Below, in pieces: positions 13,440-46,777 of a stretch of 64,000 nt of DNA (the stretch's first letter is position 1; every line of letters begins with the position of its first letter). This stretch comes from Caprella mutica (Eukaryota > Arthropoda > Malacostraca > Amphipoda > Caprellidae). The translations under genes and the position numbers were made by a program. The stretch covers positions 124,001 to 188,000 of the forward strand of contig CANNZV010002491.1 of assembly GCA_947561585.1 (NCBI GenBank), read 5' to 3'. The notes beneath the pieces were generated by a model that had not been told where the DNA came from, searched no databases, and saw nothing but the letters and a program-made list of their open reading frames with translations.

Positions 13440-14511
13440 TGACAAAAGCCCACACGACAAATCCCTAGTGACAAAAGCCCACACGACAAAATCCCACACC
13501 GATAAAAGCCCACATGACAAAATCCCACACTGACAAAAGCCCACACGACAAAATCCCTAGTGACAAAAGCCCACACCGATAAAAGCCTACTCCGACAAAA
13601 GCCCACACGACAAAAGCCCACACCGACAAAAGCCTACACCGACAAAAGCCCACACCGACAAAAGCCCATACCGACGAAAATAAAATTAGTATTCCTGCAA
13701 TATAAATAGTCCATATATGTAAAGTTGAAACAAAGGAAGATAATAGTTTAACAGTTTTTTTTCTACGGAATCATTGTAAATTTTTATTATGCCCCAAATT
13801 AGGGCGCTGTTATCGCAGAACTTAATTTTAAAACCCTAGACTATGGAAACTGCGAGTAAATATAAATAAATTGTAGGTTGTTGCTTTCCTGGAACAAGTT
13901 AGATACAATATACAAATAAGGAACTACAAAACATTTCGGTTATTTTACAGTTATATGCTAACTGTTGCTCCACGGTTTGATGAAAAAATAGAATAAAATC
14001 TGTATTCAGGACATCAACCACCATACTAATTGACTAATTACACATGTATAAGGGGCATACATAATTGTAACCAAATAAAGTATTTACGAAGAACTTGGCT
14101 ATAGAATCTAAAACTATAGCTAGCAAAGTCTACAGAGGCTGATGTATGACCTTTCGATCAGTAATCCTACATGACAACTGAACGAGACGTCTGCTGGTTA
14201 CCTGACGTCTGACTAAATGTTCCAGTAGTATATGCTAAAATTTTAGTACTTAAATTAGAGTGTTTTAAAATTAATTGTTCTGCGATAGCAGCGCCCTAAT
14301 TTGGTTCATAATACAAATTTACAATGATTCCGTAGAAAAAAAACTGCAAAATTATTATTGGTACAACTTTACATATATGGATTTATTTATATTGCAGGAA
14401 CACTAATTTTATTTTCGTCGGTATGGGCTTTTGTCGGTGTGGGCTTTCGTCGGTATGGGCTTTTGTCGGTGTGGGCTTTCGTCGGTATGGGCTTTTGTCG
14501 ATGTGGGCTTT
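13440..14511. mobile_element. Foldback-like element with GACAAAAGCCCACAC arms
   Basis: The left arm 13440-13672 is about 15 copies of a 15-bp unit (GACAAAAGCCCACAC and variants with ATC or TAG). The right arm 14417-14511 is about 6 copies in the opposite orientation. Inside the minisatellite the inverted match continues as unique sequence (13673-13850 against 14255-14416, including GTAGAAAAAAAACTG and its complement, and GGGCGCTG). A 400-bp centre (13851-14254) has no frame. It interrupts the left inverted repeat of the Tc1-like element; the intact right repeat of that element shows what the empty site looked like. Confidence 0.8.
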
Positions 14512-14706
14512 CATATAAAGCTCATATTTATTCGTATGAAATTTCAAAGCATTAGGACAAATATTCTATCAATGGTTCTATATTTCACATCCAACAATAA
14601 ATTTTGCTCTAGTCAAAAGTGAAGGGTAGCCATCATAAACGTTGAAATATTCCCGGATATAGGCAATTAACTCAATACTTTGTGAATGATTATTTGCTAT
14701 ATCACT

Positions 14707-15900
14707 TCAATACATCTTCTGCAACAAAATTCTACTAATTTTGCACAAAATGGAGGAGTTATCAATCTTCCATTCATCATCAAGAAATATCCATAATTCT
14801 TCCACATTTGTTGTGTTTTTTCTCTGAGAACTGCCTCCAATTATTATCATTAACCATCTTAATTTGATAGGCCNNNNNNNNNNNNNNNNNNNNNNNNNNN
14901 NNNNNNNNNNNNNNNNNNNNNNNNNNNNNNNNNNNNNNNNNNNNNNNNNNNNNNNNNNNNNNNNNNNNNNNNNNNNNNNNNNNNNNNNNNNNNNNNNNNN
15001 NNNNNNNNNNNNNNNNNNNNNNNNNNNNNNNNNNNNNNNNNNNNNNNNNNNNNNNNNNNNNNNNNNNNNNNNNNNNNNNNNNNNNNNNNNNNNNNNNNNN
15101 NNNNNNNNNNNNNNNNNNNNNNNNNNNNNNNNNNNNNNNNNNNNNNNNNNNNNNNNNNNNNNNNNNNNNNNNNNNNNNNNNNNNNNNNNNNNNNNAAATC
15201 CCAATTCGATTTTCTTCATTTTCTAATAGCGTACGTTGTCATGGATGAAATTTGGTGGTTGAAGGTCAGCTGATTTTAATAGGGGAGAGTATGTTGACGA
15301 AGGAGCTGTTTCATAAGCTGTTTCATACTTCTGCAACAACTCCTTCGTGCAGAAGAACAATGGGACCAGGTCCAGGAGAAGAAATGATCCCCAAACCATC
15401 ACACTACCACCTCCAAACGTAACTGTTTTCTTGACGCAGTCCAGTGTTGACATTTCCCCTACTTTACGTTCGAACCGAAGATATTTAGTTTTCTTTCATT
15501 CATCACTAGAATGTCCTTTCGACCACTGACCAATCGACCAAATGGCTTGCTCATGACAAAACACAAGTAACACTGTCCGTTACTTTTTAGAGATTAAAAG
15601 CTTCGATGCAGAGACGAATGATTGCAATCCAACTTGTTGAAGTCGAAGCGAAAAAGTTGACCGGGATACCGTACCACCAGACAGGACATCTATCTCACGA
15701 GAAATTTGACCAGAATTGTTGAAACAATTTTGCAAGCTTCTTTGAAGTGTTGCATGATCTTTTTTTGTTGTTTCTTTGGGAAGACTACCATTGGAATCAA
15801 CTTCTCCAAACTGCTTATGCTGAGCCACAATATGTTGCACAAACATTTTGGACCTTCATATGGCAATAGAAATCTCTGGCAACGACAATTGGAGACTGTA
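14707..15900 (-). pseudogene. Tc1-like transposase remnant across an assembly gap
   Basis: Minus-strand pieces in the expected order. 15846-15580: N-terminal half with TLQRSLQNCFNNSGQ and the second helix-turn-helix SGGTVSRSTFSLRLQQVGL. About 15530-15490: a broken first catalytic block, S-D-E followed by a TGA and then a frame change before LNIFGS. 15453-15223: the GGGSVMVWGSF block and the second catalytic aspartate in FIHDN. The gap (14874-15195) replaces the glutamate block. 14870-14707 is the C-terminal tail. At least one stop and one frameshift make it inactive. Confidence 0.75.
14874..15195. other. Assembly gap (322 N)
   Basis: An unresolved run of N inside the Tc1-like element, within long inverted repeats that probably defeated assembly. 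The true length is unknown. Confidence 0.98.
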
Positions 15901-17356
15901 CTCAGTGAAAAACTCAACAAATGTGTAAAAATTGTGGACATTTCTGGAGGATGAATGAAAGATAGATAACTCCTTCATATTGTACAAAATTAGAAGAATT
16001 TTGTGCCAGAAGATGTATGAAAGTGATATAGTAAAGAACTATTCACAAAGTATTAAGTTAATTGCCAATATCCGGGAATATTACAAAGTTTATGATGGCT
16101 ACCCTTAACTTTTGACCAGATCAAAATTTAGTGTTTAAAGTAGAGTATGGAACTATTCCTAGAATATTTGTCCAAATGCTTTGAAATTTCATACGATTAC
16201 AAATGAGCTCTATATGAAAATACGTGCGAAATTTATAATAATATGTTTTCAGTTCTTTTTATTAAATTAAAGATTTAGATAACTTGTTCTTGCCTACCCT
16301 TATATTTTGTCCATTACTGTATGTCCATTCTATAGTGTAACATGAAGATAGCAAATTTTCAGTGAACTATCGTTCTATTAACGATGCAATAATGTCTGAG
16401 TTTATTATATCAGGTATTTTACAAATAGATTTTGATTCAAACTGATTGTTATTGTTGGTTGAAACCACTTCACTATCTAAAACACACCTGTACCGGGAAA
16501 TATTTCCAACAGTTGTCCAATCTCAGAGGGTTCTTTTGCAGAGAACAAATCGCCACCTTTATACGTACAATATTTCCATGTATCACAAAATCTCATTTTC
16601 GCAAAGCTCTGCACATAGATGCAACCAAGACTGTTAGTGTCAGTGAACCGATAAGGACATTCAGAGTGAGTTTTCACTGACACTGCTGGAAAATAGATAT
16701 TCCACATGGTGAGAAATTTATTGTAGGAGAAGTTGTTATATTTGACACCTCTATAAATATTGTAAATATGTTACATCTATCAGACTATTTTTAAATTTAT
16801 ACTCTATTTCGCGAATCTATGTCGGATTATATAACTAAAGCTTTTATCGATATATTTACAAAGATTACACATTTAGTTATATTTACCGGTCTCTGAACTC
16901 TTGAAACTGCGCCATCCATATTGGGTGCAGACTGCAACCATTGGACAGATCGAATACTGGTGCCTTGTTCCATAAGGAATCATGTCAGAAGTCGTACCAT
17001 TGTAGCAGCCTGTGATGTAAATATACAAAATAAATATAAATCTTGTACTTTAAGATCATCTCATCTTCGAAATCATGTAAATATATAAATGAATTGATAT
17101 AATTCAGTGTTTCCAAAAATCAAGTGAATAGTAGTAAATGAGTAAATTTGTCTTCAATACATATGTTAATTAGTAACCTAGCCGCTGGTGCAGGCGCGAT
17201 AGTCACCCATTTTAAAATAGTAATAAGTTAAATTTTGAACTGATTTGGATTCTGTTTACTTTTTCACATAATTACATGTGATTAGGCAAAACGAATGTGA
17301 TAAATGGTATGATACTTATAATATGAACATTTATTCAAATTTATTAAGAGTATATC

Positions 17357-18436
17357 GGTGCTAGGAAAATTCCTCAACGGAAAATCTGTCAACTGAAAAT
17401 TCGTCCGTTTTCTTAAATTAGAAATAGAAAGAAAGACATCATTGATTGCTAACAATGTAAGAGATAATTGCAGTCGCATGAAATCTGGTTAAATTAAACT
17501 AACACATATATTCAGCAGTTATAACTGTTGATGAAAATTCATTCTATGTAGCTAATATATTATGTAATTAATTTTTTATTTACAATAAAAAATAAGAAAA
17601 TAAAAAATCCATCAAATATTCAAATTGAATAGCTGGACTTTTTTAACTATCTAAAATATGAGGGGTTATACGTCCTTTCATCGAAAACACTACCCCTAAT
17701 AAGGTATAACCATATACTTATTTTACAGTAAAAAACAGTAAAGTATACACTTTTGTCACTATTAAACCTGGCCTGGATGGCGCATGACCCCCCCCCCCCC
17801 CCCCCTACCGAACCGCTTACCTAACCTTATGTGGACTACATCTCTTTAAATTTTAGTCTTTTACGCTGTTTATCATTTCTCTCTGTTTGAATTCCTTTAG
17901 TTTGGGTTAACTCTTCTTTCTTCATTTTTACACGATTAACTTCCAAATATTAGGATGCTCTTGAACATTCCAAAATTCAACTGGGTATAACGGGTTCCCC
18001 GTCTTCTCCGTTTTGTTCCAATGTACGTAGCTTCAAAGTATTTAAAAATCTCAATTGCCATCCACGCATAAATCTTCATTTACGCCAACAACATTTTCAG
18101 GTGGTAAGAACGCTAATTTCATTATTTCATTTCTATAAATCTTAATGATTCATTAAACAATCATGAATTGTGTATTGTGCAGTAAAACAAACTTAATGGA
18201 TACAACTGTTTTGCGTTTAACGGACGAATTTCCTCTGGATATATTTTCCGTGGATGAATTTTCCGAGGACAAATTTTCCGTGGATGAATTTTCCGTGGAC
18301 AAATTTTCCGTGGACGAATATTCCGTTAATGAATTTTCCGCGGACGAATATTTCGTTGATGAATATTCAGTGGACGAATTTTCCGCAGACGAATTTTCCG
18401 AGTACGAATTTTCCGTCGACGAATTTTCCGGTCACG
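17357..18436. mobile_element. Foldback-like element with GTGGACGAATTTTCC arms
   Basis: The left end GGTGCTAGGAAAATTCC begins a short arm (17357-17406). The right arm 18216-18436 is about 14 copies of a 15-bp unit in inverse orientation, ending CCGGTCACG. It is flanked by a 9-bp imperfect duplication, GAGTATATC (17348-17356) and GAGTATGTC (18437-18445). The related element at 33162-33725 has only one such site. The right arm reads open as a five-residue repeat (DEFSV; 18163-18465) because 15 is divisible by three. I treat that as a by-product. Confidence 0.8.
17788..17805 (+). repeat. Run of 18 cytosines
   Basis: An uninterrupted C18 tract in otherwise AT-rich sequence, inside the foldback-like element. 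Its true length is uncertain because such runs are error-prone. Confidence 0.9.
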
Positions 18437-18501
18437 GAGTATGTCAGAGCTCTCTGCAATCATGAGATGCACGTTTTTGGACGAGTGTTTTTAAGAACGT
18501 A

Positions 18502-18732
18502 AGGCCCCCTTCAAACTTTCATTTCTCAACGCCACCTTTTCAAGAAAAATTTCATGGCAAAAAGTTTAGCTGCAATTGATTTTATCGGAGCCCTTCACAC
18601 TTGCGTTAGAAAAAATGCTGGTAAAAAAAACGCAAGTGTGAAGGGCTCCGTTAAAATCAATTGTAGCTAAACTTTTTGCCATGAACATTATTTTAAAGGT
18701 GGCGTCGAGAAATGCAAGTGTGAAGGGGGCCT
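18502..18732. mobile_element. Palindromic MITE, AGGCCCCCTTCA ends
   Basis: 231 bp, almost one hairpin: the left half from AGGCCCCCTTCA is mirrored by the right half to TGAAGGGGGCCT, with an internal GCAAGTGTGAAGGGCTCCG stem. TA flanks both ends (18500-18501, 18733-18734). The paralogous site near 33390 reads AGAACGTAAGGGTGAATGTC with no insertion, which supports a precise insertion. Confidence 0.85.
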
Positions 18733-19669
18733 TAGAGTGTATGTCTCGCTATAATTAGTTAACTATAACTCTTAGCGGCTTAGTTATATGTGCGAGAATA
18801 TTTGCGCACACCAAGCTCCGTACAGAGTGACAAGCCCCGCCCCTAAAATAATACCTAAGAAATATTTGTTCCTTATCTTTATTTGTTAATGTAATTTTAA
18901 ATAAAAAATAATTCTTTGGCGTCTACCAATGGTTTTGTAAATATCAAATGAAGGTTTTAATGAAAAAAAAATATCGAAAACTCAATTGGTTAAGATCTTA
19001 TAAGTTTTAATGAGGACTGGTACGCTCGCACCAGCAGTTAGGTTAGTGAGCAAAGTTTTGAGGGCTAGGTTACTAGGGTTAACAAAATACATTCCTCAAT
19101 TAGCACCTAGTTTGATGTAAATAAATATTTTAAACATATAGTAATTTTAATCTAATAAATGTATTCTCAGGCCATTCGGGCAAAGAAATTAGTTTGATAT
19201 TAAAAAAATTATAAATCTTACGAAGAATGTAGGAAAAAATTAATTTTACTCTCATAGATATTAAAAAAGTTAAAACTAAACTGAATAAAGAACATTAATT
19301 ATAAGCTAGATTATTGTTTCTCTTATTCTAATAATAATTTTTTCTATTTAAAGTTTTGGATTCATCATTTACTGTGAATGCTCCACCAATTTTTTGTGCT
19401 TTTCGTTTCTCCCGTTAATGTAATTGTATTGCTGACAATTATGTACTTTCTATCCAAGAAGAGAAGTTTTGTTAATCCCATAAGTCATATTCGTTCCTTC
19501 GACAGCAGTGATGTATTTTTCTTGCATCAATATTTTTGGTTTGGAAAATGAATGCTCCTATATTTAATATTTTGATAAAAAAAATTGTAGTTTTCAGTAT
19601 AAATCCAGTCACAGAATCGAATATATCCAAAATATGTAGCCACTACCAATTTTTGTTATTAATGGTAGG

Positions 19670-20240
19670 ATCCCCGCTCGACATTGTGAAGGCGGGTGAG
19701 CACGAGCAGGCCACAGGTGGGCCCCCATTGAAACAATCTAGAGACTAGTCATTGAAATCCTCCAGCCTCCCAATTCTTTCAAGAAAGGTAGGAAGATGCA
19801 AGAGGCTGGGAGTCTTGGTAATTCTGTGGAGGTCTGACAGAAATCCATCCAAAGTAGAGTCCCTAGTCCTGTGATAAGAAGAGCATTCTTCAACAATGTG
19901 ATTCCTTGTCTCTGGACAAGACCACATTGTTAGCAAGTACAATTATTGGTCCATTTTCTAGTAATCCTGTTATGAGATCCAATATTTCCGTGTCCTGATA
20001 AAATTTGAAGGGTTAGACTGCAAGGTTTCATTCTAGTCAACGACAAAAGTCTTAGACAGCCTCTCTTATCAAGAGGCCGCTCAAAGAGCTCTTCTGTCTG
20101 TCTACGTGAAAATAGATTGGCCCAACTTCTTGTGGAGCTATCCGCATTTCACTGGTAAACTGAAAGTCAACATGCACTGTATGGCACAGCTTGATATGAA
20201 TCTGGTCTTTCACATACGGTCTTAGATGGTTCCTTCACGA
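19670..20240 (-). pseudogene. Non-LTR retrotransposon 3' fragment
   Basis: On the minus strand, broken frames read RGCLRLLSLTRMKPCSLTLQ then LSGHGNIGSHNRI and, in 19942-19745, MWSCPETRNHIVEECSSYHR. This matches the end of I/Jockey-type reverse transcriptases, where a GH..L..H..R region is followed by a C..C....H....C knuckle (here CPET..H..EEC). Only the 3' end is present and it contains stops. It lies in intron 2 of lectin copy A. Confidence 0.65.
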
Positions 20241-20647
20241 GAAAATCGGCAACTACCATCCATGTGTTTTAAGAATAAATGTTGTTGTAGAAGATTAAGA
20301 GTGGACCTGACTTCGTCTTTTATGATCCCACATTACCTTTATTTCTCTGGTAATTGTATCTGATCATCAATATAGCGATGGTGGGCACGAGCACCACCAA
20401 TTAAGGACCATATTCGGCTCTGAAAGTTGGCACCTTTAACTCTTACTTTTTCAGTGATTTACACAGGACGAGGTAAACCTATTTTCGTTCAAAATAAAAC
20501 GGTACTTTGACCAGAAATTGTTGGTCTGGAACATTGAAGAATTTGTATTCATCAACTGAAAGGCTAAGTAGATGTAGTACTTGCAGCTTGTTTTGGCCCT
20601 AGAAAAGTCTGACATGCCTAGTGACTACCTTAGATCTAGGTACTCAC

Positions 20648-20762
20648 CTACTCCCCTCAGGGAGGCATTTCGTCTGTAGCAATTCCAATTGGAAGTAGGA
20701 GCTGCAAAGGTGATGATGTCAACCACAAGGTTACCCACGATGCACTCACTTGAAATTTTTTC
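20648..20762 (-). pseudogene. Lectin copy A exon 2, 20-base deletion
   Basis: Acceptor CGACAG then GAAAAAATTTCAAGTGAG, donor GTGAGT. All four paralogues have 135 bases between the same sites; this has 115. With exon 1 ending in phase 1, the joined reading is G-K-N-F-K-stop. The downstream frame (SSECIVGNLVVD) is otherwise intact, so the lesion looks recent. Confidence 0.8.
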
Positions 20763-21507: not shown

Positions 21508-21709
21508 CAGGGTAACCCACAAAAAATGGTACCCAACTTGGAATTAATTTAAATATCGTAGTTATAAGTAATTAAAGAATGAGTTGAAGTATTTTAAAAT
21601 TAGATTGTCAGATCATGTATCCATTCTTCCACAGTCATTGCTTAAGATTGTACGTGTACGATATTTATATTAATTCAAACTTTGGTACACTTTTTTGTGG
21701 GTCACCTTG
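21508..21709. mobile_element. 202-bp MITE, CAGGGTAACCCACAAAAAA ends
   Basis: The left end CAGGGTAACCCACAAAAAAT and the complement of the right end CAAGGTGACCCACAAAAAAG are inverted repeats. TA lies before the left end and CA (a changed TA) after the right end. This type of terminus is common among Tc1/mariner-superfamily MITEs. It lies upstream of lectin copy A. Confidence 0.75.
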
Positions 21710-21982: not shown

Positions 21983-22085
21983 AAGTCTGGGACATTTCGT
22001 CCAACGGACATTTCGTACAACGGACATTGCGTCCAACGGACATTGCGTCCAACGGACATTGCGTCCAACGGACATTTCGTAATGG
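21983..22085. repeat. Solo minisatellite arm, GGACATTGCGTCCAAC
   Basis: Six copies of a 16-bp unit beginning with GTCTGGGACATTTCG. The start resembles the GGGTCTAGGACATTTCG terminus of the foldback-like element at 41949-43094, and the unit is a variant of that element's unit. I find no inverted partner before 24000, so it is a solo or half element. Confidence 0.65.
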
Positions 22086-23261
22086 ATACAGTTTATCATC
22101 GGTACATGATCGACTTAAAAAGTTTTCCGTTGCATCAAAAGAGAACTTTAACCGTTTATTAACTACTCTGGTCGATGGAATAATTATATTCTAATTCCAA
22201 ACTAATTGCTATACTGTTTTTTTTTTTGTAGAGAATATTTAATAATTGCTATAGAAGACTGGAAGGTTTGAATTAATTTCTTTTTATTCACAAATGTCGT
22301 ATTACTCTGCGGTTTCAGTTAATTACTAAATCAATGATATATATTTTACTATTATATTCATGATTTGAATTTATGTATAAAGCTCATAATTTTCAGTAAT
22401 CATTCATTCTCGACTTTTTCAAATTATTTCAAAAATAAAATAAATCAGATTTTAGTAACAACACAAAATCATTAAAATAGCAATGATGGATTTGCCAACA
22501 ATGTCTGTATTATTTAATAAAAGGAACTCTATAAAGTAGAAGAGACAAATCTTCTACCCAATATTGAGGAATTATAATTATCATTTATACATTTATATAT
22601 GTTTATAATTGATTAGCCGAATAGTCAATCCTAATTCATCATAAAATAGTTGAAAGTCTTTCGTCGGACATATATTACAAAACCTTTCACGACGATACTT
22701 TTCGAAATTAGGATATTCGATTACGATTTCATGGATCAATTTTACGCTTCTAGCATTGATTATTATTTTAGATATAAACTTTTAATTCGGTATTCATTAG
22801 ATAATTTATATCTCAAAATATCAAGACCAAGTTTGACCATTAAAATATTCCCTGTACTTTCTTATTGCCTTTAGTTACAATTTATACGATAAGAGCAGAA
22901 TTTACATGTTTACTATATAACTTTATTGGTCTATGGAATAAAGGTTTCATCGAGTTTAATGTTGGCTTCAGTTTAACAATACCCAAATTACTCCTTATTG
23001 TGAATGTCAGTTTATCTGGTTTTAATAACACAGTTCTAGCTTAGTTATAGTTACTTGGTTAACTCTCTAAGATAATACAAACCTCATTTAACGTTAACCG
23101 TATAACAGTATCTCGTACTAGTCTTTGCATTCCTTGGTAGACAATTCGTACTTTAGATATCAGTGAAAAGGGTTCATGATAAGAACAAGATACATCATTA
23201 ACACTGATATTTTTCTAACACATCTTGAGGCTCAATCTACTGTGAACACTTGAGTTTCTAT

Positions 23262-23362: not shown

Positions 23363-23413
23363 TGATGTTAGCCGAAAAGGTGCTCAACGTTCACTTTAGC
23401 TACATGCCAACTA

Positions 23414-26519: not shown

Positions 26520-27762
26520 GGTGTACGGACAACTGCCATGCGGACAACTGCCATTCGGATAACTGCCATGCGGACAACTGCCATAGTGGACAAATGCCAT
26601 GCGGACAACTGCCATGCAATATATTATAATTTTATATTGGGTGAAATGTAATGCACTTGTAAACTTAACCTGATGTGAAGTATATTATTATCCTAACCTA
26701 AATATTAAGTATAATATTAATCGCATAGTCTGAAATTGTGCATAAAGAAGGATAAAAATTAAAATTGACGGTAAATTCATAATTTAAAGTTGAAGTATAC
26801 TAAATTCATCTTTTTGAATCATATTTAACCCATTTAGCTCCTTAAACAATCAAATGGTTAACAAAAAGTGGAAAATCTATAGATGCAAAACTTTCTTTTC
26901 AAACATTTCAAAATACAAAGCATAGTACAAATACAAGCTTTATAAAATTTCCAGTAGGTGTGATTTTGCGTTTTATTATTTAAGAATTTTCATTGGGCTA
27001 ATTAATATTTTTTATTTGTAAAACAAACTTTTCTGTTCGATTCATGATTAGAAACTGAAGTAGTATTTATCTTATTTTTATGTTTAAAAAATCCTTACAA
27101 AGAACACTTTGCTGAATAACTTTGAAATTTGAAATTGTTTTTCTATAGTTTCTTTGTTTTTAGTTTTCACCGATCAGAAACATGTCTTATAAATATTTGA
27201 AAAGTGTCAAGATATGAGAATAATTATTACTGAACTATGTTTTATTAAATTTTTTATTATACTTATAACAACTCATATATGCCCATTGTTGCGTGAAAAC
27301 AACTCTAAAATAGTAAGATGCAAAACCACACTCACTGAAAATTGTAACCTGTAAAGCTTATGTTTGTACTATTCTTTGTATTCTGAAATGTTTGAAAAAA
27401 AAAAATTTGTATCCATAAATTTTAATCTTTTTGTAAACCATTTGATTATTTAAGGCATAAAATGTGAAAGAAAATGATTGTAACAAAGAAAGAAATCTAG
27501 TATTACTTCAGTATTAATTTCAATGCTTCTTCATTCACAATTTTTTACTATACAATTAACATTTTTATGCTTAAATTTTAGGTTGAAATAATAATATACT
27601 TCACATCAAATTAATTCCAAGAAATGCTAGGTTTACAAGTGCATTCATAAAATTAAAATATATTGCATGTCAGTTGTCCGCATGGCAGTTTGTCGCATGG
27701 CAGTTGTCCACTATGGCAGTTGTCCGCATGGCAGTTGTCCTCATGGCAGTTGTCCTAGAGCC
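26520..27762. mobile_element. Foldback-like element with GGACAACTGCCATGC arms
   Basis: The left end GGTGTACGGACAACTGCC and the complement of the right end GGCTCTAGGACAACTGCC start inverted arms of about six 15-bp units each (26520-26615, 27666-27762). The inversion continues inward as unique DNA to about 27000/27290 (for example ACATTTCAAAATACAAAGCA on the left with its complement on the right). A 9-bp duplication flanks it: ATTGATAGA (26511-26519) and ATTGATTGA (27763-27771). It sits in intron 4 of lectin copy B, nine bases short of the exon 4 end. Confidence 0.85.
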
Positions 27763-30905: not shown

Positions 30906-30924
30906 TTAACAAGTTCCTTCTATA

Positions 30925-31345: not shown

Positions 31346-33161
31346 TGTTATTGTACTGCTGTCAACTCTGCATACACGCTATCCCTACAGAGAGTTATTG
31401 AAAATTATATTCTTTTCTTCGACAAAAAAAAAGAGAAATTCTTATTGCGTTAATATTTTCGGTCAGGAAAATACGTTCTCCAATATTTTGCATTTTAATA
31501 TTTACCAGATTTTAAAATATTTTCTTTTACAAATCCTTTCGTAAATCCGAGTCAATCGAAAATAATTAGCCACTAACAGTATACATGTGATTGAAAATAT
31601 TTTCATACTTTTCTCTACAAATATGAAAATTTGTAAATATTCTCTACTCTACTTGGCCTATATTAAAGTTATGGTGGGGATCCATAAGATCACAAGAATA
31701 GGGATAAGAAGGGACCTAGTCCATTCATTTATGATTCCACCTTAACTTTCATGCTCTGGTAATGATCTTAGATCCAAGATGATCCCCGTTTACCCATTTA
31801 ATTTTTTTTGTGATTTACATGAAAAAATGGTACTCTCGACATATAATATATTAACGTTCCGTAATTGAAGAGTTAAGTAGTCACTGTACTTACAGCTTGT
31901 TTTGGCCACCTTAGATCTAGGTACTCACCTACACCCCTCAGGGAGGCATTTCGTCTGTAGCAATTCCAATTGGAATTAGGAGCGTCAAAGGTGATGATGT
32001 CAACCACAATGTTACCCACGATGCACTCACTTGAAGTTTTCGCCAAACAAAACGCATTCAGTCCTGTCGAGTTGAAATATTTTATTACTATTATCACATA
32101 TTTCAATAATATAATCTATTTCAGAGAAATATTTTGTAGTTGTTTAGATTAGGTGAGTTTAACATGATATTCAGAAAAGAATTTTGATAATCTATGCATT
32201 AAATAATTCATAGAATATTTCTCTTAAATATTTCAAATATTGAATTTTTCAATTATTCTTTGCCATTTATAAAAAAAAATTGTAAAAAAGGAGAGTCTCG
32301 TGAATTAACTAGTGTTTTAAATATATAAATACAACTACAATGATAATTTACATAAATTTTTGATCCGCCATTTTGCCACATCGAATTGCTGAAATATCCT
32401 GGTAGATAATTTGACCTGTTAGAGTCGTCATGTCAATGTACTTATTGAAGTACCAAAGCGTAGCCGAAGATACGGTGAAAGAGTAAATTAAGAGAAATAT
32501 CTCACACAAAATACGTAGGTTTCCGACCATGATTTTAGCAGGTATATTTTGTTCACTTCCCAACCAGAATAAAGTCAAACTGGTTATGATATGATAGAAT
32601 AAAAGGCAGAACACGCGAGAAAGTTGAAGTAATTGCTAAGCGTAAACCATAATTGCAGATGACAATATGCTTGGAAAGAAAAGTGAGGGAACTCTTCAGT
32701 CTTCATTCGATGCTAAAAAGTTTCTAAAATTGATAATGCAGACCTGATATCCATGGAATAGTTTAAGGGTCATTTAGGTATTGTTTGCCTATTACTATGG
32801 ATACGAAGTATTTCTATGAAATTCTGTATAAGATAAATCATCAAATAAAATCAGTTATTATACAATTAAAACTAATTTTTATTCCAATATAAGTAAAGTA
32901 GAGTACCCCATGATCTATAACTGTAAGCTGTTTAGTCCTCTTGGGAAACATATAAAACTGTTTTCAAAGCAAACAACTTAAATATTTTTAGTTTCTAATA
33001 ATGATGATTACCGATATTTTGGTTGTCATTATTTCCTCTCCTCTTTCTTGTGAGAATAGATTATTTTCTCACTTTCTCTAAGACTATTCTTTATGTCACA
33101 AAGCTACAAGATACCTATAATTAGAGAAACTTGAAGGCAGCTTTTCGATTAACCTTGGTAT

Positions 33162-33725
33162 ACCTAGCCGCTGCCGCAGGCGGACTAGTCCTCATAAAAA
33201 AATCTAATTTTAAACGCGATTTGGAAACTGTTTTTTTATGAATCTAACTTTTTGTCATAATTACATGCGATTAAACAAAAATGAAGGTGATAAATGATAA
33301 GATAGTCATATTATAAGCATTTATTTCAATATATTAGGAGTATATTAGAGCTGTCTCCAGTCATGAGATGCAATAGTGTGTTTGAGAACGTAAGGGTGAA
33401 TGTCTCGCTATAATTAGTTAACTGTAACCCTTATAGAGGCTTACTGAGTCTTTGTGAATCCGCACCTCGCTAAGCTCCGTACACAGTGATAAGCCCCGCC
33501 CATACAATAATATCTAAGAAACATTTGTTTGTTACCTTCGTCTGTCACTTATTTTAAATGGAAAATTATTATTTGGCGTTTACCAATGGATGTGTAAATA
33601 TCAAATTAAGATTTTCATGAAGAAAAATTATCGAAATGTCAATTGCTTAAGATTATTTAAGAGTGTAATAGGATGCGCCAGCGCCTAAGTTAGTAATCAA
33701 ACTTTTTGAGCACTACGTTACTAGG
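33162..33725. mobile_element. Second copy of the AGTAACCTAG TIR element
   Basis: CCTAGCCGCTGCCGCAGGCG on the left and GCGCCAGCGCCTAAGTTAGT to CTACGTTACTA on the right are inverted. The interior aligns to 17171-19076 (AATTACATGCGATTA and CTCGCTATAATTAGTTAACT) but lacks both nested insertions. It lies upstream of lectin copy B. Confidence 0.7.
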
Positions 33726-35719: not shown

Positions 35720-36325
35720 CAGTGTACCATTTCTCTCACTGTACTATTTCTCTCACTGTACTATTTCTCTCACTGTACCATTTCTCTCACTGTACCATTT
35801 CTCTCACTGTACTATTTCTCTCACTGTACCATTTCTCTCACTGTACCATTTCTCTCACTGTACCATTTCTCTCACTGTACCATTTCTCTCACTGTACTAT
35901 TTCTCTCACTGTACCATTTCTCTCACTGGACCATTTCTCTCACTGGACCATTTCTCTCACTGTACCATTTCTCTCACTGTACCATTTCTCTCACTGTACC
36001 ATTTCTCTCACTGTACCATTTCTCTCACTGTACAATTTCTCTCACTGTACCATTTCTCTCACTGTACCATTTCTCTCACTGTACCATTTCTCTCACTGTA
36101 CAATTTCTTCCACTGTACCATTTCTCTCACTGTACCATTTCTCCCACTGTACCATTTCTCTCACTGGACCATTTCTCCCACTGGACCATTTCTCCCACTG
36201 TACCATTTCTCTCACTGTACCATTTCTCTCACTGTACCATTTCTCTCACTGTACCATTTCTCTCACTGTACCATTTCTCTCACTGTACCATTTCTCTCAC
36301 TGTACCATTTCTCTCACTGTACACT
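35720..36325. repeat. 17-bp satellite CTGTACCATTTCTCTCA, array 1
   Basis: About 35 copies of a 17-bp unit with few variants (CTGGACC, CTCCCA). The period is not a multiple of three, so the 229-codon open frame (35686-36375) is a 17-residue cycle reading all three phases, with no sign of selection. The unique sequence after it (ACTCATCTTCAGCTCATTAT through GCCAGTCATCGC) recurs after the second array at 45635. Confidence 0.9.
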
Positions 36326-38219: not shown

Positions 38220-39476
38220 GTCATAGTAGATTATGTGAGATCCCTCCTTCATCTTCTATAACCTAACCATAATTTCTATCTGGGTTGTTATGCCCTTTAG
38301 TTGCAGACTGATAAACTAACGTTCTTCACTTTATAAATTTCTGTTATTTTTTAACAGTAAAATATCCAAAATATTAAATAATTAATATATCAAAGACGAG
38401 TCTATAAGTGAATATTTTACCCCTGGATTGACTCAAACTAAATCAAGAAAGATCTTACTTAAAGTTCTAAGTCTAACCTCCACACTTAACTCTTATAGAA
38501 TTCACACTTCTAAGAAAATCTGCAGTATATTATATAGGTTTGAAATGGAAAATAGAACATATATGGAACAATTAATGTAACGATTAAATACACTCCTTAA
38601 TATTATAAATGGCAATTGTGACGTTTATGATAATCAAGAAAAATAATGAAAAAACATAATCAATATTTATACTTCCCTTATGGTTTTCTCAAGACTAGGT
38701 GAAAAAAATTTATAACATAATATGGTAAAATTATCATCAGGATCATGTATCTGAAAACAGCGAAAAAATGATTCAGTTTAAATATTTTAAAGTTTTAGAT
38801 ACACTGTATGCAACAAACGTACGACACACTAATAAGACGCTGAAGAAAAAGATTGTACGTTCGTTCTTTAATTGTTTTGATTTATGATTTGAATTTCATT
38901 TAACCCTGTCAATTATTATCTCAAAAAAGAAAAAAAAATGTATCAAATTTTCAACTATTATAAATCTACCCAAATTTATATTGACTCGATTACCTCCCCA
39001 TAGCTGACAAAAAAAACACATTCAATTTTAACTATATCTACCTTAAATTAACATCTCGGAAGGAAACCGCAGATTTCAGTGTACGTATTGACTATAAAAA
39101 CCTTTAAAAGCATATAGAAATGAATAGATGCTATAAAATTTCATGAAATTAACAGCAAAATGGTGTGGGTCGTTAGTTGTAAGGATTAGATCAATAGTAA
39201 AATTTGCCTGGAGGGGACCTTTAACCTTATTTTTTTCTATTAATCACTTTTTTTCAAATATTTGCTTCTTACCTCAATAATGTTTAGATAGTCTGAATGA
39301 AATAAATAAGCTCTAAATAAATTTATAAAAAATATTAGCCACTGAAATAAAAGCGCCATCTTCCACACAATCATCTGCTTGTTAAATTTTCTGATTATTA
39401 TAATTAATAAAATTTTCGAGGTTGACATCATAGAAGAAGAATCTAGTTTTAGTGAGGAAATAATTGTATAATCTGT
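38220..39476 (-). other. 3' flank of lectin copy C, shared blocks
   Basis: Aligns in order to the 3' flank of copy A: TTTCTATCTGGGTTGTTATG (38272), TTCACACTTCTAAGAAAATC (38501), AGACGCTGAAGAAAAAGATT (38836) and GCCTGGAGGGGACCTTTAAC (39206). No separate gene. Confidence 0.7.
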
Positions 39477-42400
39477 TCAATTTCTGATAATCTGACACAC
39501 AGATTGACGAGATACGAAATATGGAACATCTGTTATGTGTTGTGTCCCAACTAGTATCCCATAACTTCTTCTGTGGGTTCCAAAAGGTTTATACCTTTCT
39601 TCGGGACTCACGGATCTGTGGGAATAGATCCAAAACCAGTGACCCATAGTGACTGCCCCAACAAAGTGTTCTTCTGTGAATGAGAATAAAGATTACAATT
39701 TACTGAAATTGATAAAAAGTAAGTAGTGAAATATATCAATTAGAATTGAACCTCTATATAAACTTCAGCCTTTTACTATTCAACAGATAGCGAACTGATA
39801 GTTTACTAACGACAAAATAACTGCGCAAAATTCATAGCAAGCATCTTACAATCAAATTTTGATTCAAACTGATGCTATTGTCGGTCAAACCACTTCACTA
39901 TCTATTACACACCTGAACTGGGAAACTTTTCCATCAGTGTTCCAATCTCAGCGGGTTCTTTTGCAGAGAACAAATCGCCACCTTTCTGCGTACAAGATTT
40001 CCATGCATCACAATAATACTTATAAGACTGCAAATAGATGCAACCAAGACTGCTAGTTTCGGTGAAGTTAGAAGGACATTCAATTTTCAGTGACACTTCT
40101 ATAAAAAGGAGAAAAATATAATTGGATATAGTGTTGTACTTGACCCCTCTAGGATGATTGTATATATGTTTGGGAATTCGCCATATTTTTAAACAGATAA
40201 TAGATTTCTCAAATATACATCTGACAGTATCGATATCGATAAAACACATTATAATTTTTTCACAGTCTCAGTAACTATTACCGGATTGTTTTCTCTCAAA
40301 ACTGCGCCATCCATATTGAGTGCAGACTGCACTCATTGCACAGAACCAATACGATTGTCTTGTTCCATAAGGTACCATGTCAGAAGTCATACCATTGAAG
40401 CAGCCTGTATTGTAAATATATATTTATCAATTCTAACAAAGGTATCTTAACATAAATCCATCTTCGATATAAATATATGTGAGTAGATCTAATTCATCCA
40501 GAACTCAATTAAAAATAGCATTACAGATGTTATCAATTTTAATATGATTGATAATTGATTTCCTCATTATTGAAATAGGATTTTCCTCCTATTTTATTAT
40601 ATTAATAATAACCTATTATTTTATAGTGTTAGCTCCACCCATTATTGTGTTAGCTCCACACATTATTGTGTTAGCTCCACCCATTATTGTGTTAGCTCCA
40701 CACATAATTGTGTTAGCTCCACCCATTATTGTGTTAGCTCCACCCATTATTGTGTTAGCTCCACACATTATTGTGTTAGCTCCACCCATTATTGTGTTAG
40801 CTCCACACATAATTGTGTTAGCTCCACTCATTATTGTGTTAGCTCCACACATTATTGTGTTAGCTCCACCCATTATTGTGTTAGCTCCACACATTATTGT
40901 GTTAGCTCCACCCATTATTGTGTTAGCTCCACCCATTATTGTGTTAGCTCCACTCATTATTGTGTTAGCTCCACTCATTATTGTGTTAGCTCTACTCATT
41001 ATTGTGTTAGCTCTACTAATTATTGTGTTATCTCCACTCATTATTGTGTTAGCTCTACTCATTATTGTGTTAGCTCCACTCATTATTGTGTTAGCTCTAC
41101 TCATTATTGTGTTATCTCCACTCATTATTGTGTTATCTCCACTCATTATTGTGTTAGCTCTACTCATTATTGTGTTAGCTCTACTCATTATTGTGTTATC
41201 TCCACTCATTATTGTGTTAGCTCTACTAATTATTGTGTTAGCTCTACTCATTATTGTGTTATCTCCACTAATTATTGTGTTAGCTCTACTCATTATTGTG
41301 TTATCTCCACTCATTATTGTGTTAGCTCTACTAATTATTGTGTTATCTCTACTCATTATTGTGTTAGCTCTACTCATTATTGTGTTAGCTCCACCCATTA
41401 TTGTGTTATCTCCACTCATTATTGTGTTAGCTCCACTAATTATTGTGTTATCTCCACTCATTATTGTGTTAGCTCTACTAATTATTGTGTTATCTCTACT
41501 CATTATTGTGTTAGCTCTACTCATTATTGTGTTAGCTCCACCCATTATTGTGTTATCTCCACTCATTATTGTGTTATCTCCACTCATTATTGTGTTAGCT
41601 CCACCCATTATTGTGTTATCTCCACTCATTATTGTGTTAGCTCCACCCATTATTGTGTTATCTCCACTCATTATTGTGTTATCTCCACTCATTATTGTGT
41701 TACTTATTTTATTGATTTACATAGGTACAAAGTAAACCTTCCTTTGCACAACAGATAACGTTATTTTCAGCAGAAACTGTTGTTCTCGACACTAGTTAAA
41801 GATTTATATTCATTAACTGAAAGAAACTGATTTATGTTCATTACTTTTGTTCCATTTAGGCAATGTTTATTTGTCTAAGTAGACGCATTACTTGTAGCTT
41901 GTTTTGTCCCTGGAAGAGTCTGATCTGCCCATTTTATATCTAGATACTGGGTCTAGGACATTTCGTCCACGGACATTTCGTCCACGTACATTTCGTCCAC
42001 GGACAATTCGTCCACGGACATTTCGTCCACGAATTGATAATTTTGTATTTTAAAGTGTATATGGGATATATTTCACAATATTTTTCACTATTACATTAAT
42101 AGGCATGTATAAATACATAATAGTATTAGGTATAGTAGTTTATTCCGGACAATTCCATATGAACACAAAAAAATATTTACCCTTCGATTAGTTATGAAAT
42201 TAGACATGATAAACGGTTTTACTGTATATTTAAGTTACATATCTCCTTTAATATTTTGCATAAATAATTAATGAGTTATGAGTATCCAAAATATGGAACT
42301 GAAATAACAGGGTGAAATGAAATAATTACAATAGGTAAATAATAATGATTATATATGGTTTTATTATGAGTCCGAAAATATGGAACAGTACAGTAGCATG

Positions 42401-43703
42401 GACGGTTTTACGTTTAAATAAGTAAAGGCAACACTAGAAAGTACCAATATCCACCTAATTCTTTTATAACATAATTCATTATCAATCACTTGTTAAGCAA
42501 TATATTATATACTTGTATCATGTATGAATTTTCATTCAATCACTGTTAAAAAATGTGTTATAAAAAAGTAATTTCTGTACCAATATTGCTTCTAATAACC
42601 TAATCTGAGTAATAATATTGATGTTTATTGTAGTTATTGTTATTTTGTCCACTATTTTCCATGTTTATATATACTCTAATAACTTCGAGACATGCCTCGC
42701 TATTATTACAGATTTTATAAAATAGTGGAATAATAAAAGTGAGGCCTGCCTGTATATCATTAAAAAGTTTTCAGTTATATTATTTTACTGTTCCCGGCCA
42801 GTAGGAGCAGGAGAAGAAGATTACAATAAGAATTATGGCAAAGACCATGAATTTATAATTACCATCAACAAATGGTGTTTCTACTCTTATATTGCAAAAT
42901 ATCTGTAGATAATATTCAATATAAATTATATACACATTATAAATATAATACAAAATACAGCATTTCGTGAATGAATTGTCCGTGGACGAAATATCCGGGG
43001 ACGAAATGTCCGTTGGACGAAATGTCCGTGGACGAAATGTCCGTGGACGAAATGTCCGTGGACGAAATGTCCGTGGACGAAATGTCCGTGCACGCTAGGG
43101 ACTCACTTACTCCCCTCAGGGAGGCATTTCGTCTGTAGCAATTCCAATTGGAATTAAGGGCTTCGAAGGTGATGGTGTCAACCAGAATGTTACCCACGAT
43201 GCACTCACTTGAAGTTTTCGACAAACAAAACGCATTTAGTCCTGTCGAGTTAAAATACTCTATTAATATTTTCACATATTAAAATAATAAAATCGATATC
43301 AGAGATGTTTTCTAGTTGTTCAGAATAGGTTACTTGACAATCGATTTAAAAATATTGATAAAGTAAGTAGGTTAAATAATTACAGAAATTGCTTATTAAG
43401 TACTGAATAATAATTCAAATATTTTATCTCTGAAACTCTGTCATTTATACCCAAAAATACTTTCTGATATTTAAATATTAGAGATTGTTAGGTAATAAAA
43501 TATAATTATAAGATTAAAATTTAAATACCTTTTTGATCCGCCATTTTGCCACATCGAATTGCAGAAATATCCTGGTAGATAATTTGACCTGTTAGAGTCG
43601 TCATGTCAATGTACTTATTGAAGTACCAAAGCGTAGCCGAAGATACGGTGAAGGAGTAAATTAAGAGAAATATCTTACACAAGATACGTAGGTTTCCAAC
43701 CAT
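39477..43703 (-). CDS. Lectin copy C: secreted PAN-like plus C-type-lectin-like protein, intact
   Basis: Exons on minus: 43703-43529, 43241-43107, 40404-40282, 40098-39913, 39673-39477. All boundaries are GT-AG, all phase 1, total 816 bases, 271 residues. Residues 1-23 are a signal peptide (MVGNLRILCKIFLLIYSFTV then SSA). About 40-103 is PAN/apple-like, with cysteines 51, 64, 72 and 93 in ISAIRCGKMADQKGLNAFC and SSECIVGN. 104-144 is a small cysteine module (CFNG..., AVCTQYGWRSF). 145-271 is a CTLD: ECPSNFTETSSLGCIYL, CDAWKSCTQKGGDLFSAKEP, GHWFWIYSHRSV, closing VCQIIRN. The EPN/QPD and WND calcium-sugar motifs are not visible, so classic calcium-dependent sugar binding is doubtful. Probably a secreted recognition protein. 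Intron 2 contains a 51-copy satellite and a foldback-like element placed at the exon 2 donor. Confidence 0.82.
40624..41703. repeat. 21-bp satellite in intron 2 of lectin copy C
   Basis: About 51 copies of a 21-bp unit (GTGTTAGCTCCACCCATT plus ATT). Variants are arranged in blocks: CCC/CAC units at the left, CTCT and TATC units at the centre and right, and composite repeats of several units such as GTTATCTCC followed by GTTAGCTCT. The period keeps both strands open (395 and 358 codons), an artefact of the unit. The same unit is single in introns of copies A and B and about six-fold in E. Confidence 0.9.
41949..43094. mobile_element. Foldback-like element with GGACATTTCGTCCAC arms, at a splice donor
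   Basis: The left end GGGTCTAGGACATTTCG begins about 5 units (41949-42032). The right arm (42965-43094) is about 9 inverted units, ending TGTCCGTGCACG. A 9-bp duplication flanks it: CTAGATACT (41940-41948) and CTAGGGACT (43095-43103). Empty paralogues read CTAGGTACT. The right duplication overlaps the exon 2 donor (GTGAGT on minus, 43106-43101), so the donor is rebuilt by the duplication. The 930-bp centre has no frame. Confidence 0.85.
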
Positions 43704-43740
43704 GATTTTAGCAGATGAATTTAATCTCTTCCTATCCAGA

Positions 43741-43790
43741 CTGAAGTCAAACTGGTTATAGTTATTTAAAATAAAACGCAGAACACGCAG
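43741..43790 (-). promoter_or_regulatory. Conserved block upstream of exon 1, possible promoter or 5' UTR
   Basis: In all five copies the 30-100 bases before the start codon keep AACCAGTTTGAC (on minus) preceded by a T/A-rich stretch (for example TTTTATTTTAAATA here) and GTTCTGC. Equivalent positions: A 21285-21335, B 32568-32615, D 51355-51400, E 59472-59520. I infer a promoter-proximal element or 5' UTR; the start site is not defined. Confidence 0.4.
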
Positions 43791-44308
43791 GTAAGTTGCC
43801 GTAATTACTGAACAATAACTATAATTACAGATTGCAATATGCGTGCAATAGAAAACTAAAACCCCTACTCATATAACGTTAAAAAGTTTCTAAAAATGAT
43901 TATGCAGTACATATATTAATGGAATAACTTGTGTGCCATTTAAGTATTGTTTATTTGTTGCTGTTGAAGGTGGATTGTACCTTCAACACTGTCTGAATGT
44001 TTCCCGTTAACTTTATCCATTTCAAGCTGAGTAATAATTACATATAGAGAAATAAATGAATAACTAGAAAATAGCACATTTATATTCTATAAGCTTTCTA
44101 AAAATATAAGGCTATACTGATAAAATAGGATTACATGTTGTGGGTTATTTAAACACTTTATATTCTGAAAACGTGTTTTTCGAAAACGAAATATTTCAGT
44201 AAAAATAAAAACGAATAAATAAATCATCCAATGAAATCAGTGATTTCACATCAGAAAGCTAATTTTAAATCAATGATAAGGACTGTTGAATACCAAATTG
44301 TCTCTTAA

Positions 44309-44564
44309 GGGCCGTACACATGTAAGTTTTTTAAGTCTTTCCACCAGACTTTTTGCTAAGCTCCTCCTACTTTTTCCACAAGAATATAAGAAAAAACGAT
44401 ATAATTATTATTTAATTTAGTTTGTATCCATGATACCTGAAGGTATCACCAACTAAACTAAATAATTATTATATCGTTTTTTCTTATATTCTTGTGGAAA
44501 AAGTAGGAGGAGCTTAGCAAAAAGTCTGGTGGAAAGACTTAAAAAACCTACGTGTGTACGGCCC
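44309..44564. mobile_element. 256-bp palindromic MITE with TTAA flanks
   Basis: The left half GGGCCGTACACATGTAAGTT is mirrored at the right end by ACGTGTGTACGGCCC. The arms are nearly perfect for about 115 bases (shared AGCTCCTCCTACTTTTTCCA and its complement), with a short centre. TTAA stands directly outside both ends (44305-44308, 44565-44568). The flank suggests movement by a piggyBac-type transposase. It lies upstream of lectin copy C. Confidence 0.88.
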
Positions 44565-45169
44565 TTAACTGAAAACTCTTTAGTCCATTTGATGAATATA
44601 TAATAAGTACAGTTTCAAACGATTCAAGACGTTAAAATAGTTCTAGCTTCAATGAAATAAGAATACCAATATTTTGGTCACCTTAATTTAAATTATTTTA
44701 TGTGATTATTCCATTTAATTCGTTTCTAGTAATTAGATTAATATGAAAAAATTCTTACCATGTATTTTTAATTTCAATAAAAATAAGCACACAATAGAAC
44801 CAAATCAATACAAAAAAAATAGCCTATTTTAACTAAGAGTTAAATTGAGAAAAAAAAACTTTATTCTAAATTGAGTTCAATGAAATGTTTTGTAAATTAT
44901 ATATCTACTTGAAATATCTATTCTGAATCAAAATTTAGTCTATTACTTTCAGTACTACCTATTTAATAAAGATATTAATGCGCAGTAACTTCTTCAATCA
45001 ATCAATCAAATAAATGTTGAATGTTGTAAAAGTCAGCAACAAATTAGACTGTGCAAGGTTTTTTACCTTTCTAATTTATATAAAAGTAAAAAAATTAATA
45101 CTTCGCGATAGCAAATGATAAAGAACAAAAATAACTTCATCTTTATGAACCATAATAATAGACTGAATA

Positions 45170-45636
45170 TCACTGTACCTTTTCTCTCACTGTACCATTT
45201 CTCTCACTGTACCATTTCTCTCACTGTACCATTTCTCTCACTGTACCATTTCTCTCACTGTTCCATTTCTCTCACTGTACCATTTCTCTCACTGTACCAT
45301 TCCCCTCACTGTACCATTTCTCTCACTATACCATTTCTCTCACTGTACTATTTCTCTCACTGTACCATTTCTCTCACTGTACCATTTCTCTCACTCTACC
45401 ATTTCTCTCACTGTACCATTTCTCTCACTGTACCATTTCTCTCACTGTTCCATTTCTCTCACTGTACCATTTCTCTCACTGTAGCATTTCTCTCACTGTA
45501 CCTTTTCTCTCACTGTACCATTTCTCTCACTGCACCATTTCTCTCACTGTGCCATTTCTCTCACTGCACCATTTCTCTCTCTGTACCATTTCTCTCACTG
45601 TACCATTTCTCTCACTTTACCATTTCTCTCACTGTA
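45170..45636. repeat. 17-bp satellite CTGTACCATTTCTCTCA, array 2
   Basis: About 27 copies of the same 17-bp unit as at 35720-36325, followed by the same unique sequence (ACTCATCTTCAGCTCATTAT to GCCAGTCATCGCAATATCC). The two arrays are paralogous parts of duplicated units. Confidence 0.9.
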
Positions 45637-45794
45637 CACTCATCTTCAGCTCATTATTTATTGTCTTCAAATCAGTTTCTGTTTCGCTGAATTAGGGAAG
45701 ACAAAGCCTGAAAATGGCGGGATTATCTCCGTAGATTATCCGTATTTGGAGTTAAGATATCTTGTGCCAGTCATCGCAATATCCTCTCAATGAA

Positions 45795-46777
45795 GGTATC
45801 CGGAAAATTGATCGAAAGCAATTGATCGAAGGGAAAATTGGTCGAATGGAAAATTGGTCGAATGGAAAATTGATCGAAGGGAAAATTGGTCGAAAGGAAA
45901 ATTGTTCGAATGGAAAATTGATCGAATGGATAATTGATCGAAAGCAATTGATCGAATGGAAAATTGATCGAAGGGAAAATTGGTCGAAAGGAAATTGATC
46001 GAATGGAAAATTGGTCGAAAGGAAATTGATCGAATGGAAAATTGGTCGAAAGGAAATTGATCGCATGGAGAATTGACCGAAACAAAATTGATCGAAAATG
46101 ATATTGGATCTATTTACACTAATTGAAAATGATAACTAAAACCATGGATTTCCAGAGAAACTTACTTGCAATATATTACAGCTGGTAGATCTTGCTACCA
46201 TGATTTATATATAATAATAATAATTTATATAATAATATATAATAATAATTTATGTATAACATTTCTTTAATCTACTGTTTTTCTATAACAGGGAATTATA
46301 TGCATTGAAATATATTATAATTTGTAGAACTTTAAGTTTTCTTAGTTCTAGAATTTAGATAGTTCTAGATAACTTGTGAAATGAAAGTTAATAATTAATT
46401 AATTTAGTATAGGTTAGACGTCTGTTTCGGAACAAAAAGCCATGTCACTGACGGCAAAATGGAATTAAATACAAGAGATAGGAAGAAGCAGTCAGAAAGG
46501 AAAGTGGATTCATGAACAAAGTCATTTAACACCGTCGGTGACAATGCTCATGGATGTAGAAAAGCTACTCTGTGAGTGCAGTCACTTACAAAGGAATGTA
46601 ACAAAAGGGACACTAAGCACCGGTTACTGCACTCACAGATGGAAGAAAATAATGAAGCTGATCTATTCGATCAATTTTCCTTTCGATCAATTTTCCATTC
46701 GACCAATTTTCCATTCGATCAATTGCTTTCGATAAATTGTTTTCGGTCAATTGCATTCGATCAATTTTCCTAGACCC
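45795..46777. mobile_element. Foldback-like element with GAATGGAAAATTGATC arms
   Basis: The left end GGTATCCGGAAAATTGATCG begins about 19 units of 15-16 bp (45795-46100). The right arm 46664-46777 is about 7 inverted units ending TTTTCCTAGACCC, so the complemented right end is GGGTCTAGGAAAATTGATCG. No target duplication is recognisable. Next to the right arm, 46440-46645 is a copy of the dispersed repeat also seen at 2224-2545. The left flank is the unit shared with 36330-36475, where no insertion is present. Confidence 0.8.

Follow-up and report, generated by a model that had tools for sequence, protein, structure and literature searches.

What kind of element carries inverted arrays of 15–16-bp tandem units that differ from one pair of arrays to the next but share their outer ends? 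The question is raised by a 64,000-nucleotide stretch of the genome of the amphipod Caprella mutica (assembly GCA_947561585.1, contig CANNZV010002491.1, positions 124,001 to 188,000 of the forward strand; hereafter the window), in which an initial annotation described four clear pairs and a fifth, less clear one as foldback-like elements. We find that these are very probably non-autonomous cut-and-paste DNA transposons of the Mutator superfamily, of the Phantom/Tm1 type and in foldback form. There are several families, which have different repeat units and the same two short, unequal end signals.

Tandem Repeats Finder placed inverted pairs of 15–16-bp arrays at all of the positions first reported, so that the inverted arms at the four clear sites are confirmed. 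When the end sequences were read, each arm was seen to start with GG directly after a 7-bp block, and the 9 bp beyond both 7-bp blocks were alike. The outer ends quoted in the initial annotation are present, and its two groups of like ends proved to be the two different ends of each element, here called A and B. An A end is mostly GG[CTG][TG]CTA, then GG (roughly GGNNCTA before GG), and a B end is mostly [GC][G][TG][GA]N[CA]C, then GG (roughly [GC]GTGN[CA]C before GG). The strand of an element is given as the direction from its B end to its A end. Five elements were delimited in the window:

17357 to 18436, minus strand: W1, non-autonomous, A end GGTGCTA on the left and B end CGTGACC on the right (reversed), unit GGAAAATTCGTCCAC.
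26520 to 27762, plus strand: W2, non-autonomous, B end GGTGTAC on the left and A end GGCTCTA on the right, unit GGACAACTGCCATGC.
41949 to 43094, minus strand: W3, non-autonomous, A end GGGTCTA on the left and B end CGTGCAC on the right, unit GGACATTTCGTCCAC.
45795 to 46777, plus strand: W4, non-autonomous, B end GGTATCC on the left and A end GGGTCTA on the right, unit GGAAAATTGATCGAAA.
10760 to 11026, plus strand: a 267-bp element absent from the initial annotation, B end GGTGACC and A end GGTTCTA, arms of barely one unit.

The arms may be very unequal, with 3 units on the left and 14 on the right in W1 and 19 and 7 in W4. The 9-bp target-site duplications (TSDs) that had been proposed are found at three of the four clear elements: GAGTATATC/GAGTATGTC at W1 (8 of 9 letters), ATTGATAGA/ATTGATTGA at W2 (8 of 9) and CTAGATACT/CTAGGGACT at W3 (7 of 9), W4 being the exception taken up below. 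The 267-bp element, which was located by the end-grammar scan described below, has the TSD ATTGGATAG with 9 of 9 letters alike; having ends but hardly any array, it suggests that the element is defined by its ends rather than by its arrays. The stop-to-stop frames of at least 110 amino acids inside W1–W4 are arm-derived only, so that W1–W4 encode no transposase.

Outside the window the analysis drew on loci L002 to L040, about 300 kb in all. These include 20 sampled 10-kb stretches, namely bases 60001–70000 of contigs picked by number (C10 to C650) and so not strictly random, of which 19 are host sequence and the twentieth, L009, reads as bacterial. They also include 12 loci with a MULE transposase, a non-random choice for which a strong match or a FLYWCH domain nearby was the criterion. 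The statement that the unit differs between elements holds inside the window, but the units recur in copies elsewhere. The W1 family has at least 160 matches across the genome (40 of 1769 first-look candidates scored), W2 has an 86% identical counterpart of 1019 bp in L006, and L018 (997–2001) matches W4 along the length of the latter, again with 86% identity; the element there, at 998–2145, has flanks unlike those of W4 and a perfect TSD, CCTGGACGA. Since five delimited elements lie in the 64-kb window and L018 is the one host stretch of the 19 sampled to hold any, the window is probably rich in them.

Fourteen elements have a duplication of at least 7 of 9 letters (8 of 8 in L036), and with W4 they make up a set of 15, each of which has one A end and one B end. 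Position 7 is occupied by A in 15/15 A ends and by C in 15/15 B ends, and in all 15 the 7-bp ends are followed by GG and then A or T, except at the B end of L038, which has GA for GG, was left untyped by the script and was assigned to B by hand. Because the core letters were a condition of the scan from which the 267-bp element and the limits of L037 come, 13/13 is the fairer count; among the 13, some ends were fixed by eye. Outside this set stand L003, L007 and the outer element of L004, relatives of W1 with A- and B-looking ends and duplications that are shifted, gapped or absent; L008, with an A end and an unrecognizable opposite end; L002, L005, L006, L029, L033, L039 and the transposon common to L030 and L031, which the available sequence does not delimit on both sides; and L040, whose ends were not seen.

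The position of the insertion boundary was assayed by an offset test on inverted pairs of 11-mers that start with GG, match with at most one mismatch and lie 150–5000 bp apart in the window and L002–L040 (778 pairs). The 9 bp outside each pair were compared at offsets 0 to 30, flanks with two or fewer different letters being dropped, so that the test is blind to the letters of the 7-bp block. At offset 7, eight of the 778 pairs agree in at least 8 of 9 letters, against 0–3 at each of the 30 other offsets; agreement in all nine is seen for three pairs at offset 7 versus four summed elsewhere (two at offset 22, one each at 29 and 30). One of the eight pairs, L031 715–924, is without end motifs and represents chance or an internal palindrome. 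In the end-grammar scan, which covered the window, the 19 sampled host loci and the 12 MULE loci, an A core (TAGG[AT]) and a B core ([AC]CGG[AT]) 200–6000 bp apart were combined with the 7-bp distance and a duplication. Duplications of 9/9 letters number six at offset 7 versus three in total at 19 control offsets, all three at offset 2.

Empty sites were sought by matching the available sequence against the joined flanks of 15 elements, L003 and L007 among them, in which the duplication was kept only once; in L036, L038, L003 and L007 the flanks were taken with an error of one to a few bases. Matches across the junction were obtained for eight of the 15 (W1, W3, L004in, L031, L034, L036, L038 and L007). 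Alignments were viewed for five of these eight: W1, W3, L031 and L034 each have an uninterrupted relative with one 9-bp target, five places being shown for L031 and the site of L034 being its own tandem array, and the alignments for L004in are weak at the junction. The related empty sites in the window are:

33247 to 33395, plus strand: empty site related to W1, with a single GAGTATATT, 77% identical across the junction of the joined flanks.
50709 to 50924, plus strand: empty site related to W3, with a single CTAGGTACT, 91%.
31903 to 32085, plus strand: empty site related to W3, with a single CTAGGTACT, 90%.
20564 to 20759, plus strand: empty site related to W3, with a single CTAGGTACT, 85%.

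These results show insertion with a 9-bp (once 8-bp) duplication and a boundary exactly 7 bp outside the arm.

The initial annotation had envisaged an autonomous copy with a transposase between such arms, and six MULE transposons were indeed found to carry A and B ends and arms. At E<=0.05 there are 59 matches to PF10551 (MULE), from 150 scored out of 153 candidates, and 34 to PF04500 (FLYWCH); comparison of the two lists puts FLYWCH within 2 kb of MULE in 17 of the 59, and FLYWCH lies beside MULE in 11 of the 12 chosen loci. Pfam places both domains within one frame in L029, L035 and L032. Six of the 12 loci are delimited on both sides by ends and duplication, five of them (L032, L035, L036, L037 and L038) with FLYWCH and MULE together:

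L032: TSD AAATTATGT, 9 of 9 letters.
L034: TSD of 8 of 9 letters; open MULE frame of 430 amino acids.
L035: TSD of 7 of 9 letters.
L036: perfect 8-bp TSD, 3 of 9 letters if read as 9 bp.
L037: TSD GTAGTGAAC, 9 of 9 letters.
L038: TSD of 8 of 9 letters.

They fall into three families, L032/L037, L034 and L035/L036/L038. L030 and L031 carry one common transposon (96%). Among the FLYWCH-MULE frames seen, that of L029, at 466 amino acids, is alone in being both full-size and uninterrupted; a database search with this protein gave 408 homologues, and most of the 120 listed carry FLYWCH and MULE, the organisms named among those 120 presumably all being arthropods. FLYWCH-MULE proteins of aphid, firefly and shrimp are among these named hits. 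No external relatives of the transposase were confirmed in viral_contigs, searched with the L029 protein and a 16-protein alignment, or in genome_contigs, searched with the alignment. An array of W4 units in L033 was considered as an arm of the local MULE gene and rejected, as it is the A end of an adjacent W4 copy.

A module of about 380 bp is present in nine of the 12 MULE loci (only 117 bp of it in one), in W4 and in four of the 19 sampled host loci, one of these copies lying inside the W4 relative of L018. It was considered as a second gene and rejected, having no consistent reading frame, and may be a dispersed repeat or a common internal part of these transposons. Its places are:

46391 to 46657, 53212 to 53446 and 2234 to 2550 of the window: ~380-bp module.
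L029, L031, L032, L033, L034, L035, L037, L039, L040, L010, L018, L023 and L027: ~380-bp module.

In all six delimited MULE transposons, end B lies 5' of the gene and end A lies 3' of it. This polarity holds in families whose transposases are 38–48% identical, and in Tm1, discussed below, A and C likewise stand before GGA if its motifs are printed from the outside inwards. That Phantom transposons keep such a polarity, with A before the inner GG at the 3' end and C at the 5' end, that their transposase must then read the ends differently, and that the arms are rows of binding sites which are specific to a family and can be exchanged, is a proposal we make tentatively and hold to be possible but doubtful. 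No published statement of a fixed end order relative to the gene, or of an A/C difference common to phyla, was found in a search outside which lay the original Phantom paper and most subscription papers.

Given several families with common ends, it must be asked how the arms come to be homogeneous within an element. According to the initial annotation, a single transposase would recognize the outer ends while the arms are homogenized separately in each copy. W1 and L034, which share the identical ends GGTGCTA/CGTGACC despite different arm units, agree with this in that ends and units are separable, and runs of identical units do exist (the right arm of L031, and L033). The mean similarity of units within an arm and between copies is, however, 0.787/0.788, 0.797/0.797, 0.825/0.829, 0.850/0.813 and 0.857/0.856 in five families, that is, equal in four of the five, and the outer unit variants stand in identical order in W4, L018 and L033 (by eye). 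Because units within an arm are as similar as those between copies, the homogeneity of an arm comes for the most part from its family, supplemented by local expansions, and is not remade in each copy. Nor does one transposase serve for all: identity is 94–96% among the proteins of L035/L036/L038 (unit GGAAAACTCACACCC) and 88% between those of L032 and L037, whose units are of the GGACAACTGGTACCC kind, against 38–48% among the three delimited families. In a comparison of ten proteins that included partial frames of unequal length and left out L030 and L040, identity between groups was 29–50%. As judged from these comparisons, like arms are shown to go with like transposases in the three delimited families, and neither concerted evolution within each copy nor a single enzyme is borne out; we consider the model that combines them improbable.

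The mover might instead be an enzyme of the Rehavkus group, with a PHD finger, as in the Rehavkus/NOF type, and Table 1 of one paper (PMC6446971, accessible in part) lists Rehavkus with a 9-bp TSD and a minisatellite. The genes between arms of the present kind are nevertheless MULE genes, five of six with FLYWCH, no search aimed at PHD-finger transposases having been made, and we think this source very unlikely. There is next to no likelihood that local satellites were merely inverted by chance, with no transposition. Other tandem arrays are plentiful in the window, which would suit such an origin, but the empty sites, the duplications at a fixed offset and the full-length copies with other flanks speak against it and refute it for the elements with empty sites, one-armed arrays being outside this refutation.

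Various observations also weigh against our own reading of the elements as Phantom/Tm1-type transposons, or against parts of it. W4 has no recognizable TSD in its flanks (4 of 9 letters). With 8/9 letters allowed, the grammar scan gives 11 hits at offset 7 versus 29 summed over the 19 control offsets, and two of the 11 (L023 and L036 4422–5120) have unlike arms and look like chance. In the available sequence, seven of the 15 joined flanks have no empty site (W2, W4, L018, L032, L035, L030s and L003), and those of the 267-bp element and L037 are likewise without a junction-spanning match. Six of the 12 MULE loci (L029, L030, L031, L033, L039 and L040) are not delimited within 6 kb, and L034 has a MULE match and no FLYWCH match. 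On the right of L037, next to a run of N, no more than 10 bp of the B arm can be seen, with a unit (GGAAAACTCG) unlike the one in the A arm on the left. The exact units of W1, W3 or W4 were found in no autonomous copy, and the mobilization of these elements by a Phantom transposase is proposed from their shared ends and TSD length. The polarity is drawn from six elements of only three families; the 5' end of the transposon in L030/L031 reads GGATCA followed by GTG, rather than having the final C before GG, and in L029 an A-type array lies 5' of the gene. Non-autonomous elements in L031 and L004 match both this array and the flank on its inner side, for which reason we rejected the array as the transposase's own arm and ascribe it to a neighboring non-autonomous element. 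As to the arms, the fourth of the five families (GGTAAATTGCTCGAAA, three copies) has an excess of within-arm similarity, for which the consecutive identical units of L031 are at least partly responsible. In the fifth, with two copies of which one is represented by a single arm, the two arms of W2 are 0.891 alike versus 0.856 between W2 and its copy in L006.

Foldback forms with tandem units in their arms are known from Drosophila FB/NOF and from sea urchin TU elements, the latter modular with outer units of about 15 bp. The elements described here resemble both in foldback shape and arm units and differ from FB in having FLYWCH-MULE, the FB transposase being of the NOF type. Galileo has a P-type transposase with a THAP domain and a 7-bp TSD, unlike the 9-bp, once 8-bp, duplication seen here. 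According to the accessible part of one report, it also has long internally repetitive inverted ends within the P superfamily (PMC3688188), and in this it is like the present elements.

The initial annotation compared the elements to Drosophila FB, but Phantom/Tm1 and Aedes Muta are nearer. In the accessible portion of its description, Tm1 of root-knot nematodes is assigned to the Phantom subclass of Mutator, with a FLYWCH-MULE transposase and derivatives resembling miniature inverted-repeat transposable elements; it has a 9-bp TSD, unlike outer motifs A1 (CGGTTAA, CGGATAA) and A2 (CCTACCC), then GGA, tandem units of 8–21 bp, mostly 14, and a purine-rich motif D (PMC3169594). As far as that portion goes, the Caprella elements share with Tm1 the 9-bp TSD, the unlike 7-bp ends, GGA, the arms of tandem units, the FLYWCH-MULE gene and the occurrence of miniature derivatives, and also A versus C before GGA, provided that both Tm1 motifs are printed from the outside inwards, as we assume. 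They are unlike it in having several unit families in one genome, the ends GGNNCTA and [GC]GTGN[CA]C, and GGT besides GGA. For Muta of Aedes aegypti, the sections available describe 14 MULE families with an 8–9-bp TSD, a short terminal motif (in Muta1 a 10-bp imperfect palindrome), derivatives with foreign middles, and 9–15-bp subterminal tandem repeats in 10 of 12 families with long terminal inverted repeats (PMC5225508). Several MULE families with differing subterminal repeats and a short motif outside them are thus common to both animals, so that a set of diverse arms within one genome is already in print; in those sections the text on Muta is silent about an end difference such as that between A and B. 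A minisatellite is listed for aphid Phantom as well as for Rehavkus in the accessible part of PMC6446971, and the main text of a 2026 survey of arthropod MULEs, as far as accessible, is without the words tandem, subterminal, foldback and asymmetric (PMC13359780). The architecture is the one known from Phantom/Tm1, and the end grammar together with the polarity is possibly the new part.

On the Phantom/Tm1 reading, the transposase would bind the 15–16-bp units, probably with its FLYWCH zinc finger; an arm would then be a row of putative binding sites, and the enzyme would cleave 7 bp outside the outermost unit. It would distinguish A from B, the catalytic complex requiring one of each, and would cut the target with a 9-bp stagger. 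The units would drift along with their transposase, family by family, and their number would be altered through slippage or unequal exchange. The elements in the window would have arisen as derivatives by deletion or replacement and would be mobilized in trans by the Phantom transposases of this genome.

The fifth, less clear site of the initial annotation (13440–14511) does have inverted 16-bp arrays and is an insertion in a dispersed repeat, but neither 7-bp ends nor a TSD were seen there. Its inverted inner part spans 263 bp at 88%, some array sequence included. The flanks match uninterrupted copies of the repeat at 16028–16327 (minus strand) and in L017 31–197, 24 bp of the repeat being missing; the site is therefore an insertion, of an unclassified element type. 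This and three lesser arrays in the window are:

13441 to 14512, no strand assigned: inverted 16-bp arrays (GACAAAAGCCCACACC) with an inverted inner domain, a degenerate or different element.
21983 to 22086, plus strand: one-armed remnant with unit GGACATTGCGTCCAAC and outer AAGTCTG before GGACA, by eye, neither A nor B exactly; a unit search gave no partner arm nearby.
50380 to 50527, minus strand: one-armed remnant with the B-like end CGTGAGC before GGACA (reversed), by eye.
62407 to 62493, no strand assigned: small inverted array with the B-like end TGTGACC before GGAAAA (reversed), by eye, no TSD recognized.

Other features were noted in passing. Long arrays with a common 17-bp unit (TGTACCATTTCTCTCAC) lie at 35723–36322 and 45170–45637 of the window; both run in one direction, and about 9 kb separates them. 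L038 holds 67 copies of a 15-bp unit (ACACTTGGCCCAATG) at 681–1679, perhaps the over-expanded arm of another element, and its Phantom copy is inserted at the edge of this array. Frames at 43521–43868 and 51115–51654 (minus strand) have a long near-identical stretch in common (SSATLWYFNKYIDMTTLTGQIIYQDISAIRCGKMADQKGI) and no Pfam match, and are perhaps exons of a duplicated gene. A fragment of a Tc1/mariner-type transposase (HTH_Tnp_Tc3_2) lies at 82–552 (plus strand), and runs of N at 14874–15195 of the window and 4238–4689 of L037. A large bacterial contig, from a symbiont or a contaminant, is apparently part of the assembly: L009 (G000:C10:60001–70000) belongs to a contig of 2,671,627 bases, and its adjoining frames, read by eye, are ones we take to resemble a LytS-type sensor kinase, M16 peptidases and an ACC-deaminase-like enzyme.

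The status of such inverted minisatellites as transposon ends is thereby settled, and the rule of an A and a B core, 7 bp and a 9-bp duplication finds elements even where the arms are short. Phantom-type transposons are shown to carry and move minisatellite arrays, and the polarity rule is directly testable in any animal genome that has Phantom elements.

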